Origin: SAR202 cluster bacterium bin87
GTDB lineage: Bacteria; Chloroflexota; Dehalococcoidia; Lucifugimonadales; UBA3495
Length of the DNA stretch: 64,000 nucleotides
Direction of reading: 5' to 3'
Assembly (NCBI GenBank): GCA_002238825.1
Contig: MPNC01000004.1
Span: forward strand, 255,241-319,240
This document shows, piece after piece, positions 18,676 to 44,663 of this stretch. The notes beneath the pieces are model-generated. The model was not told the origin of the DNA and did not search any database. It was given only the letters and a program-made list of their open reading frames with translations. A program made the position numbers and the translations under genes. How positions within the stretch are numbered: the first letter of the stretch is position 1; each line of letters starts with the position of its first letter.

Positions 18676-18701
18676 GCGCTGGCAGTCAGTGAGGTAGTCA
18701 C

Positions 18702-19520
18702 ATGGACTTCGGACTCCAGGATACGGTTGCCCTGGTGGTGGACTCGCACCTTGCGATCGCCACGGCTACCGCCACCGCATTGGCCAAAGAGGGAGCGATC
18801 CTTTCGTTGACCGCGCCCGACAATTACCGGATGCGGCACGTCGAGATGGAAATCGCCCGCAAGCACATTCCCCAGGACCGGTTCCGCGCCGTCATCGCCG
18901 ACCTCGACCGGGAACAGGACATCCACCGCCTGGTGCGCGAGACCCTGCATCGCCAGGGCAACATCGGCGTCATGGTCACCACCGTGCAGGACCAGGGCAA
19001 CTCGATGGCCAGCGAGTTGGAGGACGAGCAGATCGAGCCCGCCCTGGCTCGCAACTTCATGTCCGCCGTACACCTGACCCGCGAGGTCCTGCCGCACATG
19101 CGGCGCTACGGCATGGGCCGCATCATAAACCTCGTCCCGTTCTCCGCCATGGAAGTGTCCCCGCGCAATACCCTGTCTTCCCTCAGCCTCGCCCCGGTGC
19201 TGGCGTATTTCAAGGGCCTGGCCTCCGAGTTGGCCCCGCACAACATCACCGTCAACAACGTAATCTACGCCGGCGTGCATTGCGAGGAAATCGACGATCC
19301 CGCGGGCGCCCCGGATCATGGAGCGTCGGATGGCGAAGCGGACGGGCAGGCCTGTGCCAATCCAGATCTCGAGGAAATCGCGGCCGAGGCTCCCATGAAA
19401 CGCATGGGCACTCCCAAGGAGATCGGCGACATCGTTTGCATGATCGCCTCGGACCAGGCGTCCTACCTCACCGGCGCGAACATCATCGTCGACGGCGGCA
19501 TTCACCACAACTACGCCTGA
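18702..19520 (+). CDS. Degenerate short-chain dehydrogenase/reductase-like protein
   Basis: 272 residues with an SDR fold outline: LVVDSHLAIATA at the dinucleotide loop, PHNITVNNV, and the C-terminal YLTGANIIVDGG. The TGxxxGIG glycines are replaced (VDSHLAIA). The Y-x3-K catalytic pair aligns with Ser and Leu in SLSLAPVLA. Around residues 205-222 the frame gives a low-quality acidic stretch (DHGASDGEADGQACANP). The +1 frame over the same bases encodes MERRMAKRTGRPVP, which is what SDRs normally have there, so two compensating indels are likely. The protein may be a pseudoenzyme or a damaged gene. It lies 26 bp after the CoA transferase. Confidence 0.75.
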   Translation: MDFGLQDTVALVVDSHLAIATATATALAKEGAILSLTAPDNYRMRHVEMEIARKHIPQDRFRAVIADLDREQDIHRLVRETLHRQGNIGVMVTTVQDQGNSMASELEDEQIEPALARNFMSAVHLTREVLPHMRRYGMGRIINLVPFSAMEVSPRNTLSSLSLAPVLAYFKGLASELAPHNITVNNVIYAGVHCEEIDDPAGAPDHGASDGEADGQACANPDLEEIAAEAPMKRMGTPKEIGDIVCMIASDQASYLTGANIIVDGGIHHNYA

Positions 19521-19565
19521 CGCCGGACGTCGCAACGCCTTCCCCTACAGCAGCAGGAGGCCCCA

Positions 19566-20756
19566 ATGGCCAACGCCAGGATGATTGATGACGCCCGAGA
19601 GTACCTGCAGGCGGAAAACCTCCCCGGCTGGCTCATCTACGACTACCTCGGCTGCAACCCGGTCCTGGCCCAGGTTGCCACGCCCTCCGGCCACGTTACC
19701 CGCCCCGTCTTCCTGTTCGTGCCCGTGGATGGCTCCGCCACGCTGCTCACCCACCACGTGGACGCCGGCAAGTTCGCGGACGCCGGGGACGGAACCGACC
19801 TGAAACAGGTGGTGTACAGCAGCCGAGTGACCCTGGAAAGCGCCCTGCAAAAGACGCTATCCGGCTGCGGCCGCGTGGCTATGGAATACTCACCGCGCAA
19901 CGGCCTGCCCCGCGTCTCACGGGTCGATGCCGGCACCGTCGAACTGGTTCGCAGCATGGGCGCTGACGTGGTGTCTTCCGCTGACCTGATGCAATATGCC
20001 ACCCAGCGCTGGTCACCTGAACAGTTGGCGGGGCACAAACGGGCCGCCGACAAGCTGGCCCGCATTGTCAACGAGGCCTTCGCCCGCATCGGCCAACGCC
20101 TCTCCGACGGCCCCACCGAGTTCGAGATCGCCGAGTTCATCCGCGCCCGCTTCCGCGAGGAGAGCCTGGTCACCGCCGACGGCCCCATCGTTTCCACCAA
20201 CGCCCATTGCTCAGACCCGCACTACGAACCCGCGGCGGAAGGCAGCAGCGTCATCGCGCCCGGCGACTGGGTCCTCATCGACCTCTGGGCCCGCGAGGAC
20301 ACGCCCGGCAGCGTCTACGCCGACATCACCTGGACCGCCTACGTCGGCGACAACCCGTCCGAAAGGCACCGGCAGATCTTCGACATCGTTCTCGGCGCCC
20401 GCGACGCCGCCCTGTCCTTCCTGCAGGACTCCTTCTCTCGCGGCGAGCCCATCCAGGGGTGGCAGGCCGACGATGTGGCCCGCACCTACATCGCCGACCA
20501 CGGCTTCGGTGACTACTTCACCCACCGCCTGGGTCATAGCATCTACCACACCGTCCACGGCGAGGGCGTAAACCTGGACAACTTCGAGACCCACGACACG
20601 CGGCGCGTCATCCCCGGCGTCGGGTTCTCCATCGAACCGGGCATCTACCTGCCCGAATTCGGCGTGCGCTCCGAGATCGACGCCTACATGAGCGAGGGCG
20701 GCCCCTACGCCTCGTCGCCCGTGCAGCGGGACATCGTGCTGATTACGGCCCCGTGA
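19566..20756 (+). CDS. M24 family metallopeptidase (Xaa-Pro aminopeptidase/creatinase-like)
   Basis: 396 residues: N-terminal creatinase-like domain, then a pita-bread catalytic domain. The five dinuclear-metal ligands can be placed: D about 239 (LIDLWA), D about 253 (ADITW), H about 323 (HRLGHSIYH), E about 356 (SIEPGIY) and E about 370 (RSEIDAY). All are intact, so it should be active as an aminopeptidase or a C-N hydrolase. AGGAGG precedes the ATG. It ends in a 14-bp convergent overlap with the YceI gene. Confidence 0.9.
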   Translation: MANARMIDDAREYLQAENLPGWLIYDYLGCNPVLAQVATPSGHVTRPVFLFVPVDGSATLLTHHVDAGKFADAGDGTDLKQVVYSSRVTLESALQKTLSGCGRVAMEYSPRNGLPRVSRVDAGTVELVRSMGADVVSSADLMQYATQRWSPEQLAGHKRAADKLARIVNEAFARIGQRLSDGPTEFEIAEFIRARFREESLVTADGPIVSTNAHCSDPHYEPAAEGSSVIAPGDWVLIDLWAREDTPGSVYADITWTAYVGDNPSERHRQIFDIVLGARDAALSFLQDSFSRGEPIQGWQADDVARTYIADHGFGDYFTHRLGHSIYHTVHGEGVNLDNFETHDTRRVIPGVGFSIEPGIYLPEFGVRSEIDAYMSEGGPYASSPVQRDIVLITAP

Positions 20757-41560: not shown

Positions 41561-42661
41561 TTGAAGGTTAAAGCTGCCGTTTTGTGGGAAGTTGGTCAGC
41601 CTCTCGATATCCGCGAGGTCGACCTCGATGAGCCGAAGGCCGGCGAGGTCCTGGTGAAGGTCGGTTCCGCCGGCATCTGCCGCAGCGACCGCCACTTCAT
41701 GCACGGCGACGCCCCCATCGCCATCCCCGTCGTCCTCGGACACGAGGGCGCCGGAACCGTCGTCCAGACCGGCCCGGGCGTCACCCTCGCCTCTGAGGGG
41801 GACCAGGTCATCCTGTCCTTCGTGCCCGCCTGCGGACGCTGTCGCTCCTGCCTCGAGGGCTACAGCAACCTCTGCGACCTCCACGGGGCCACCGGCGCCA
41901 ACATGCTCGACGGCACCACCCGCCTCCACGCCGAGGGCAAGGACGTCCACCACATGGGCAAGGTGGCCTGCTTCGCCGAGTACGCCGTCATCCCCGAAAC
42001 CGGCGTGGTGCCTCTCTCCGACTCCATCCCCATGGACAAGGCCGCCATGATCGGCTGCTCCGTCACCACCGGAGTCGGCGCGGCCATCTACAGCGCCGAG
42101 ATCAAGCCCGGCAGCACCGTCGCCGTCATCGGCTGCGGCGGCGTCGGACTCAACGTCATCATGGGCGCGGCCCTCGCCAACGCCAGCCAGATCATCGCCG
42201 TCGACATCCGCGAGGCCCAGCTCGAGTTCGCCATGCGCTTCGGCGCCACCCACACCGTCAACGCCGCCGACCAGGACCCGGTTCGCCAGGTCAAGGACCT
42301 CACCGGCGGCCGCGGCGCCGACTACACCTTCGAGGTTTTCGGCAGCGGGGACACCACCAAGGCTGCCTATGACATGGCCGCCAAGCGCGGCATCGTCACC
42401 GTCGTCGGTATCGCCCCCTGGGGCCAGGAAGCCGGCATCAACGCCGTCGACCTCGTCCGCAACGAGAAGACCCTGCGCGGCTCCTACTACGGTTCCGCCC
42501 GCTCCCGCACCGACATGCCCGTCATGGTCGACCTCTACCAGTCCGGCAAGCTCAACCTCGACGACCTGGTCGTGCGCCACTACACCCTCGACCAGATCAA
42601 CGAGGCCTACGACGACCTCGACCGCGGCGAAATCGGCCGCGGCGCCATCATGTTCGACTAA
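41561..42661 (+). CDS. Zinc-dependent alcohol dehydrogenase (class III-like MDR)
   Basis: 366 residues, medium-chain dehydrogenase. Catalytic zinc ligands are C40 (GICRSD) and H61/E62 (GHEGAG). The structural zinc is bound by C91, C94, C97 and C105 in ACGRCRSCLEGYSNLC. The NAD-binding Rossmann loop is GCGGVGLN (about 191-198), and VDIREAQLE gives the acidic residue that favours NAD over NADP. The start is TTG, placed by AGGAGGGA just upstream. It oxidises an alcohol or aldehyde adduct; resemblance is to formaldehyde-dehydrogenase-type MDRs. A hairpin follows the stop. Confidence 0.92.
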   Translation: MKVKAAVLWEVGQPLDIREVDLDEPKAGEVLVKVGSAGICRSDRHFMHGDAPIAIPVVLGHEGAGTVVQTGPGVTLASEGDQVILSFVPACGRCRSCLEGYSNLCDLHGATGANMLDGTTRLHAEGKDVHHMGKVACFAEYAVIPETGVVPLSDSIPMDKAAMIGCSVTTGVGAAIYSAEIKPGSTVAVIGCGGVGLNVIMGAALANASQIIAVDIREAQLEFAMRFGATHTVNAADQDPVRQVKDLTGGRGADYTFEVFGSGDTTKAAYDMAAKRGIVTVVGIAPWGQEAGINAVDLVRNEKTLRGSYYGSARSRTDMPVMVDLYQSGKLNLDDLVVRHYTLDQINEAYDDLDRGEIGRGAIMFD

Positions 42662-42672
42662 TGGGTTCTTCG

Positions 42673-42698
42673 CAGGGGCGGATGATCATTCGCCCCCG
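42673..42698. repeat. Short hairpin repeat family C, copy 3
   Basis: Stem AGGGGCGGATGA against CATTCGCCCCC, 12 bases past the alcohol dehydrogenase stop and just before the HEPN/PaREP1 genes. Same sequence family as 12084, 14119, 50900 and 52252. Confidence 0.7.
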
Positions 42699-42723
42699 CA
42701 ACCTCCTCCGTCATACGCCCATC

Positions 42724-43101
42724 ATGGCTACGGAAGCGACCCCCGTCACCGCATCGGACCACGCCCGCGCGGCTTGGGACATGCTGGCAGAGTCGGACCG
42801 CCAATTCGCCGCGCGACGGCATTTGCAGGCCTCTGCGACACTCTGGAAAGCAACGGCCCACGCGGTGATGGCGGTGGCCGCCCACCGCGGCTGGCCCTGC
42901 GACGGCAGCCGCCGGGATCTGAGACTGGCCGTCGAGCGTTTGGGCGAAGAAACGGGGAATGAACTTATACCCTCAAAGTACATCTATGCTGAAACCTTCC
43001 GCGAAAACGCGGAAACGGACTTCATGGAATATCGCTCCCTGGCCTATGATGGGGCCAGGGCCCGCGATTTCATCCGTTCCCTTTTGACTATGGCATGCTG
43101 A
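42724..43101 (+). CDS. HEPN/PaREP1-like protein, first of a tandem pair
   Basis: 125 residues, all-helical. The segment AESDRQFAARRHLQASATLWKA is the PaREP1-type signature (D-x-x-F..G/R-x-x-x-Q-A-x-x-x-x-W-x-A), and a second helix HAVMAVAAHRGW follows. It shares this pattern and length with the next gene, so the two are paralogues. Its stop overlaps the next ATG by 7 bp. HEPN-like proteins often act with a partner in toxin-antitoxin or RNA-binding roles. Function unproven. Confidence 0.6.
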   Translation: MATEATPVTASDHARAAWDMLAESDRQFAARRHLQASATLWKATAHAVMAVAAHRGWPCDGSRRDLRLAVERLGEETGNELIPSKYIYAETFRENAETDFMEYRSLAYDGARARDFIRSLLTMAC

Positions 43102-43448
43102 CGGATGACCACGCAGCGACTGCTTTGGCCTTCCTGGACGCATCGGACCGAGAATTCGCAGCCGGAGATCAACTGCAAGCATCGGAGAAACTCTGGGGAG
43201 CCGCAACTCACGCCCTGATGGCAATTGCCATGCAGGGCGGTCGTCGCCTCGGCAGCCATAACTCGTTCCGCGACACGGCTGAGCAGCTGTCCGACGAACA
43301 CAGCGACGCGTCAATCGAGTACGGATTTGCCCACGCCGAAAGGTTCCACCGCAACTTTTACCACGCCGACATTGGTGACTACGAACTCGATGTTCTGCGT
43401 CGCCGCGTTCACGACTTTGTCCACCGGGTGTTGTCATTGCTCGGTTGA
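43095..43448 (+). CDS. HEPN/PaREP1-like protein, second of a tandem pair
   Basis: 117 residues. DASDREFAAGDQLQASEKLWGAATHALMAIA matches the corresponding region of the gene at 42724 nearly position by position, and the later NSFRDTAEQLSDEH and YADAERFHRNFY-like region (AHAERFHRNFYHA) is the family's second half. Overlap with the upstream gene is 7 bp, and the selenoprotein gene starts 12 bp downstream. The pair may form a heterodimer. Confidence 0.6.
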   Translation: MLTDDHAATALAFLDASDREFAAGDQLQASEKLWGAATHALMAIAMQGGRRLGSHNSFRDTAEQLSDEHSDASIEYGFAHAERFHRNFYHADIGDYELDVLRRRVHDFVHRVLSLLG

Positions 43449-43460
43449 GGAGATGTAGAA

Positions 43461-44663
43461 ATGCCCCGCCTATCCGTCCTGTCAGAAGTCCAGCGCCAGA
43501 TGCTGCAGTTCTTCCCCTGCATGGAAGCTGACGGCACCCCCTGGTCGCCGCTCTCGAAGCCGTTGAACCAGACCACGGCCGCCATCGTCACCACCGCCGG
43601 TCTCCACCTGCGCGACGACAAGCCCTTCAACCGTGACCATCCCGGCGGCGAGTCCACCTACCGCGTCATCCCCAGCGACTCCGACGCCGCCGACATCGTC
43701 CAGAGCCACTTCAGCATCGGCTTCGACCGCACCGCCATTTACCGGGACATCAACATCACCTTCCCCATGGATCGCGTGCGCGAACTGGCCGAGCGCGGCG
43801 TCATCGGCTCCGTCGCTCCCAATCACTACTCGTTCATGGGCGCCCTTCGCGACTGCACCGTCGTCGCCGAGCAGACCGGACCCGAGGTCGCCCAGCGCCT
43901 CAAGGCCGAAGGGGTCGACCTGGTCCTGCTGACCCCCACTTGACCCCTCTGCACCCACGCCGTGAGCGTGCTTGCCCGGGTCTTTGAGGAAGCCGGCCTG
44001 ACCACCGTTGCCATCGCGCTCGTGCGCGAACACGCCGAGCGCGTCCAGCCGCCCCGTGCCCTGTGGGTGCCCTTTTACTTCGGCTACACCATGGGCAAAC
44101 CGGACGACCCCGATTACCAGCACCAGGTCCTCGCTGCCGCCCTGGGGACGCTGGACGCCGCCGCCGGCCCAGTCCTCGCCGACTATCCCGAGGATGCCGG
44201 CCCATTGGGCATGCCGCAGGCCTCCGAGGTGGCGGCATCGACCAACGGCGACACGGTCAAACCCCTGGACGCTGCCGACGAGATCACCGCCCTGCGCGGC
44301 TACTACGAGCGCTGGCAGGAACAGCGCGGCCGCACCGCCGTGGGCGTCACCGGCATCCCCCAGCGACGCTTCCGTGGCATCATTCGCTTCCTGGAAGCCT
44401 ACGCCGAGCGCGACGACGCCGACATGGACGAGCGTCCCGCCGATGTGTCCGTGCCCCAGTTCGTCCGCTACTGCGCCGACGACCTCAAGGCCTTCTGCTA
44501 CGAGGCCCGCATGGCCCAGCGTCCCAGCGACACCGAGGCCGACATCCACACCTGGTTCTGGAGCGAGACCGCCGTGGGCTCCCTCATCGACAGCATCACC
44601 CAGCGCCTCAACGCCACCGGCGACGCCAAGCTCCAGGCCACGGCCTACGGCCTCTCTCGTTAG
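43461..44663 (+). CDS. GrdB/PrdB-like selenoprotein with in-frame UGA (Sec161)
   Basis: One reading frame of 401 codons with TGA at 43941-43943. Before it, 160 residues match the glycine/betaine/D-proline reductase B family (AIVTTAGLHLRDDKPFN, RDINITFPMDRVRELAERG, HYSFMGALRD, GVDLVLLTPT). After it the frame continues without interruption with PLCTHAVSVLARVFEEAGLTTV and RVQPPRALWVPFYFG, again family sequence. Reading TGA as selenocysteine gives the redox motif U-P-L-C at the position where relatives have Cys or Sec. A candidate SECIS hairpin begins 26 bases downstream. Reductive C-N or C-S cleavage is expected; the C-terminal about 150 residues are an extra helical domain. Confidence 0.82.
43970..43993 (+). 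promoter_or_regulatory. Candidate bacterial SECIS element
   Basis: GCTT (43970-43973) pairs with AAGC (43990-43993) around an imperfect upper stem and a loop beginning GGGTCT at 43978, 34 bases after the UGA. The loop starts with G and has GGU, as bacterial SECIS loops do. The upper stem has two mismatches, so this is tentative. A small CACGC/GCGTG hairpin at 43956-43970 is an alternative. Confidence 0.35.

Follow-up and report, generated by a model that had tools for sequence, protein, structure and literature searches.

The locus at 43461-44663 of the window (the whole 64,000-nucleotide stretch from SAR202 cluster bacterium bin87 that was analysed) raises the question of whether a gene that looks broken by an in-frame TGA is a decayed gene, or whether the UGA is read as selenocysteine (Sec) in a full-length selenoprotein and, if so, which enzyme the gene encodes. 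An earlier note on this DNA had proposed that two open frames, in one reading frame and separated by TGA alone, encode a GrdB/PrdB-like selenoprotein of about 400 residues. Reading of the sequence agrees with this. The sole internal stop is the TGA at 43941-43943, the frame ends with TAG at 44661-44663, and the 400-residue product has the junction LLTPT-U-PLCTHAV, as claimed. Translation would start at ATG 43461, which has an AGGAG ribosome-binding site upstream and lies 12 bases past the end of the preceding gene. A standard gene call cuts the frame in two at the TGA. The predicted features of the gene are:

43461..44663, + strand: putative selenoprotein gene, PrdB/GrdB-like Sec domain plus C-terminal helical domain, 400 aa, Sec161
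43941..43943, + strand: UGA predicted to be read as Sec, residue 161, motif TPT-U-PLC-TH; TGA in orthologues, Cys in Chloroflexota relatives
43539..44153, + strand: PrdB-like domain, residues 27-231; TIGR04483 157 bits, E 3.8e-46; PF07355
44250..44660, + strand: C-terminal six-helix domain, residues 264-400, from an AlphaFold2 model; no known family or confident fold match

Decoding of the in-frame UGA

Decoding of UGA as Sec depends on selA, selB, selC (tRNA-Sec) and selD, and a search of the assembly recovered the whole set: tRNA-Sec (Rfam RF01852, 66.4 bits against a cut-off of 47; ARAGORN anticodon TCA), selB (353 bits against 242), selA (545 bits against 268) and selD (373 bits against 125). 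The organism's own selD carries an in-frame TGA as well, which probably makes its product, selenophosphate synthetase, a selenoprotein too.

Relatives of the protein were found in 46 of 50 genomes of the same bacterial family, and the full-length orthologues in this family, 55-97% identical, each contain a single in-frame TGA; three same-family matches without a stop all fall short of residue 161. Across the class, 102 of 294 genomes contain relatives, and among the matches listed nearly every one has one TGA. In the full-length Dehalococcoidia/SAR202 orthologues the TGA at the motif gives one consistent site across the loci read, where TAA or TAG never occurs, and the part downstream of it aligns end to end. 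The column of Sec161 is occupied by Cys in six short Chloroflexota relatives and in two alphaproteobacterial ones, in keeping with the proposal that Sec or Cys is found at this redox position, and in the tree the Chloroflexota Cys forms are nested inside a Sec-containing clade. Finally, dN/dS values (Nei-Gojobori) were 0.04-0.15 upstream of the TGA, 0.08-0.16 just downstream of it and 0.05-0.12 in the C-terminal domain, which points to purifying selection both before and after the TGA.

Taken with the hairpin described below, the Sec machinery, the conserved TGA, the Cys relatives and the dN/dS values uphold the proposal that the organism decodes UGA as Sec. On this comparative evidence the apparently stop-broken gene is, as far as sequence can tell, an intact and functional selenoprotein gene, although readthrough could be partial, with a 160-residue product predominating. 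That the TGA arose by nonsense mutation or sequencing error, or is otherwise a true stop, leaving two fragments of a decayed gene, would fit the in-frame stop codon at which the standard gene call splits the frame; its probability is practically negligible, since the TGA is kept in dozens of independent genomes and never replaced by TAA or TAG, dN/dS downstream is far under 1, the hairpin is conserved and the Sec machinery is complete. Chance, sequencing error and pseudogene are all rejected on the TGA in full-length orthologues together with the low dN/dS. Genome-wide reassignment of UGA to another amino acid would equally explain an in-frame UGA that appears translated, but it has next to no chance of being correct, as the two genes immediately upstream terminate at TGA and tRNA-Sec, selA, selB and selD are all there.

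Another long frame of coding composition in the window, 18693-20756, also has a single in-frame TGA (at 19518, between 276 and 412 codons). The context there is HHNYA*RRTSQ with no redox motif at the stop, and this frame most likely represents two genes in the same frame.

A SECIS-like hairpin downstream of the UGA

For Sec insertion, SelB and Sec-tRNA would read the UGA at 43941-43943 guided by a hairpin just downstream. A candidate for this element, which had been named as a check on the Sec proposal, was found immediately 3' of the UGA, with a G in a small apical loop:

43951..43975, + strand: bacterial SECIS-like hairpin, lower stem 43951-43952 with 43974-43975, apical loop 43961-43965

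The upper stem pairs 43956-43960 (CACGC) with 43966-43970 (GCGTG), so that, counted in nucleotides after the UGA, 13-17 pair with 27-23 and 8-9 with 32-31. The apical loop reads CGTGA with the G at 43962; bacterial SECIS elements carry a G in the apical loop (PMC1088965). The GU in the loop also begins a conserved Val codon. Rfam contains no family matching the hairpin.

Across 62 distinct sequences, 88% of cells had the six pairs 13-18 with 27-22 formed, compared with 64.5% (sd 1.9, z 12.6) in synonymous-codon shuffles that kept every protein sequence, and pairing at the other centres tested did not exceed 69%. Among 31 diverse sequences, pairing in the upper stem of five pairs reached 94.8%, with two-sided changes in four of the five. 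The whole structure had a covariation score of 0.362; shuffles gave 0.186, none of 500 reaching the observed value, and slid versions of the structure stayed at or below 0.111 throughout. Short Sec relatives mostly retain four to five of the five core pairs (one has three), and a hairpin is present at the same place in Chloroflexota GrdB. The Cys relatives have two to four core pairs of five, mostly two to three, and the hairpin is degraded in them. The six short Chloroflexota PrdB-like loci are Sec-to-Cys conversions with a degraded downstream hairpin, and offer a natural comparison of the states before and after loss of a SECIS.

Relationship to PrdB and GrdB, and the C-terminal domain

Residues 27-231 match the PrdB profile TIGR04483 with 157.4 bits (E 3.8e-46), which is under the equivalog cut-off of 300, and the GRDB superfamily PF07355 with 43.9 bits, above the Pfam gathering cut-off of 22. 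TIGR01917 gave 39.1 bits against a cut-off of 602, with only positions 270-376 of the 431 in the profile matched. Annotated PrdB proteins from Firmicutes plasmids are 34-41% identical over about half of the protein (35-41% where the match covers residues 4-223 or 28-220), and the joined protein is homologous to GrdB/PrdB across the Sec site. Of the suggestion that both sides of the TGA belong to the same family, what stands is that the upstream half and about 70 residues downstream match PrdB; the remainder matches no family.

As for PrdB itself, the domain is the same, Sec is at the same column and the UxxC arrangement is shared. The motif, however, is PT-U-PLC-TH in the window protein and AG-U-GTC-HR in genuine PrdB (UPLC versus UGTC), the window protein carries an extra C-terminal domain, and no PrdA was found in the assembly. 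The profile PF09338 (PrdA/GrdE) had no match in the assembly (67 contigs, rated 100% complete), and since the same search found it in 8 of 301 Chloroflexota genomes, the search works. PF04723 (GrdA) likewise had no match in the assembly, in a search without a positive control. GrdB (PF07355, TIGR01917/01918) is homologous around the Sec site, but the GrdB examples are in genomes with PF09338, the motif in Chloroflexota GrdB is U-G-T-G/A and not UPxC, and GrdB forms a far branch in the tree. A maximum-likelihood tree built on the shared domain places the long forms in one clade (support 99/95), which divides into a group from the organism's own order and a second group; PrdB (94/88) and GrdB (100/100) are apart from it.

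The closest likeness in the active site is to short PrdB-like proteins from Chloroflexota and Alphaproteobacteria with a UPxC or CPxC site, which differ in being about 240-310 residues long and in having no long C-terminal helical domain. They are annotated "glycine/sarcosine/betaine reductase selenoprotein B family protein", and no prd or grd genes adjoin them in the examples read. The length of 160-250 residues previously given for short relatives needs correction to this range, because 160 is the length of the product truncated at the UGA. Two alphaproteobacterial plasmids carry CPxC relatives of about 300 residues that are annotated "selenoprotein B family protein" despite having Cys and not Sec.

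The identity to annotated PrdB of up to 41% and the E value with TIGR04483 could be taken to mean that the protein is a genuine subunit of D-proline reductase (or of a glycine-type reductase) working with a pyruvoyl partner. We find this very unlikely: 157 bits is far from the cut-off of 300, PF09338 was not found in the assembly but was found elsewhere by the same search, PF04723 was not found in its uncontrolled search, UPLC is neither UGTC nor U-G-T-G/A, and the clade is a separate one. In two annotated prd clusters, moreover, the position of prdA is two genes upstream of prdB, whereas the window has an alcohol dehydrogenase (ADH) gene and PaREP1 genes. The motif, the score below the cut-off, the absence of PF09338 and the separate clade thus argue that the protein, although related to the PrdB/GrdB selenol domain and expected to work like it, is neither PrdB nor GrdB, so that of the assignment in the earlier note the likeness holds and membership in either reductase does not. 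We consider it highly probable that UGA is recoded as Sec in a long form that is PrdB-like but not PrdB.

What sets the long form apart is its C-terminal part of about 137 residues (residues 264-400; about 150 had been claimed for an extra helical domain), which is highly conserved with the motifs PQRRFRG, DDLKAF-YEARM-Q and H-WFW-ET. AlphaFold2 modelled this part as six helices (pLDDT 93, pTM 0.88) and the whole protein with pLDDT 83 and pTM 0.86, and in the latter model Sec161 is located in a turn preceding helix 164-177, placing the UxxC just before the helix. The C-terminal domain matched no family in Pfam, and fold searches found no confident PDB match for it, with Foldseek E values of 3.9 or worse and VIA-align Z scores of at most 5.3, which does not by itself prove a new fold. 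For the whole model the same two programs returned generic alpha/beta matches alone, with Z up to 7.4. Sequence searches of the PDB gave nothing useful, one of them matching mainly designed helical proteins, and PADLOC and PHROGs gave nothing significant. A profile of the C-terminal domain matched in 26 of 197 class genomes and in 13 of 400 phylum genomes; in the genomes searched with both profiles the places coincide with the Sec protein, and in Chloroflexota the domain was found solely behind this Sec domain. The conserved motifs and this co-location indicate that the extension belongs to the enzyme as a conserved part of it.

Gene context, proposed function and host

Three genes precede the selenoprotein gene:

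41561..42661, + strand: zinc-type alcohol dehydrogenase; closest NCBIfam is NDMA-dependent ADH, 398 bits, below the cut-off of 440
42661..43101, + strand: PaREP1-like protein 1; E 0.0033, below cut-off; start abuts the ADH stop
43095..43448, + strand: PaREP1 family protein 2; E 2.6e-13; ends 12 bases ahead of the selenoprotein start

Because the four genes are on the same strand and almost gapless, they probably form an operon. The closest relatives also have the two PaREP1-like genes (42661-43448) between ADH and the selenoprotein gene; other members of the genus lack them. In two genera the first conserved gene upstream is ADH, and elsewhere the neighbours vary; luciferase-like monooxygenase genes are found near the long form in several other genera, and the neighbour analysis gave no constant partner gene beyond the two nearest genera. 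Since the gene neighbours differ between genera, the context does not name a pathway.

PrdB and GrdB act in anaerobes, and in their complexes the pyruvoyl enzyme holds the substrate on which the selenol acts. The product of the window gene would be a fusion of two domains, an alpha/beta one whose U-x-x-C site lies where a helix begins and a helical one of this branch alone. Without a pyruvoyl partner (PrdA/GrdE) it would act alone, or with some other partner, as a selenol/thiol oxidoreductase, and a stand-alone enzyme of this kind is the function we infer. The selenolate of Sec161 would be the nucleophile attacking the substrate, Cys164 would be the resolving thiol, converting the adduct to a Se-S bond, and regeneration of the enzyme would fall to thioredoxin or a cellular thiol, making the thiol system the electron source. 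For the redox mechanism taken alone, which draws on homology to PrdB/GrdB and on the motif, we see roughly even chances. As no pyruvoyl partner was found, the fused C-terminal domain is the natural candidate for supplying substrate or partner binding. The upstream alcohol dehydrogenase weakly suggests a carbonyl or thiol-adduct metabolite as the substrate.

A narrower version of this explanation casts the long form as a substrate-specific reductase that takes part in breaking down recalcitrant organic matter and is tied to ADH or to the luciferase-like monooxygenases. The positions of the ADH and monooxygenase genes mentioned above are consistent with it, as is the presence of up to five long-form copies per genome, some in tandem. 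We nevertheless regard it as unlikely, because the neighbours also include RecQ, ClpS, DnaN, CobB-like and MFS genes and vary in orientation and distance. Moreover, flavin monooxygenases of the luciferase-like kind are abundant in SAR202, and their nearness may therefore be due to chance. A bolder extension of the stand-alone oxidoreductase, which we think quite unlikely, is that the long form is a new class of stand-alone selenoenzyme in which the fused helical domain replaces the pyruvoyl subunit, multiplied in some SAR202 lineages within an expanded catabolism; if this were true, the helical domain would give a substrate site within one polypeptide.

The named relatives are from metagenome-assembled genomes of Dehalococcoidia and other Chloroflexota, several of them labelled SAR202 cluster. 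The hosts of PrdB are amino-acid-fermenting anaerobes, whereas the SAR202 hosts of the window protein have cultivated relatives described as aerobic (PMC10444878). The marine "proline reductase PrdB" proteins of the Sargasso Sea and GOS are also UxxC selenoproteins of pfam07355 from bacterial marine plankton (PMC1088965, PMC2398784); compared by description only, the accessible text of these reports describes no Chloroflexota host, C-terminal domain or split from true PrdB. There "PrdB" ranks third in abundance among the selenoprotein families of the Sargasso Sea, with 42 Sec genes (PMC1088965), and GOS has 235 Sec forms of it (PMC2398784). In deep-sea Chloroflexi, formate dehydrogenases with Sec have been reported (PMC5736913). 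Hence the view that Sec use is little described in such Chloroflexota is only partly right, because Sec "PrdB" is among the commonest marine selenoproteins and these formate dehydrogenases are known, although a literature search of partial scope found no account of SAR202 selenoproteins. The Sec part appears to be of a kind known since 2005 from the marine "PrdB" selenoproteins; the long fused branch and the SAR202 host would be new.

With this locus the PrdB-like selenoproteins abundant in marine metagenomes gain, for one branch at least, a definite host group, SAR202/Dehalococcoidia; the evidence above separates this long branch from D-proline reductase. The locus also defines a domain with no relative recognised by fold, joined in every case to the Sec site and, in this sampling, seen in Chloroflexota alone. 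Gene callers that halt at UGA cut such genes in two and may name them proline or glycine reductase; both the selenium use of SAR202 and the enzyme would then be missed. In another Dehalococcoidia family the long-form genes are arranged in tandem, with three copies in about 4 kb at one locus, and the five copies in some genomes are an unusual multiplication of one selenoprotein.
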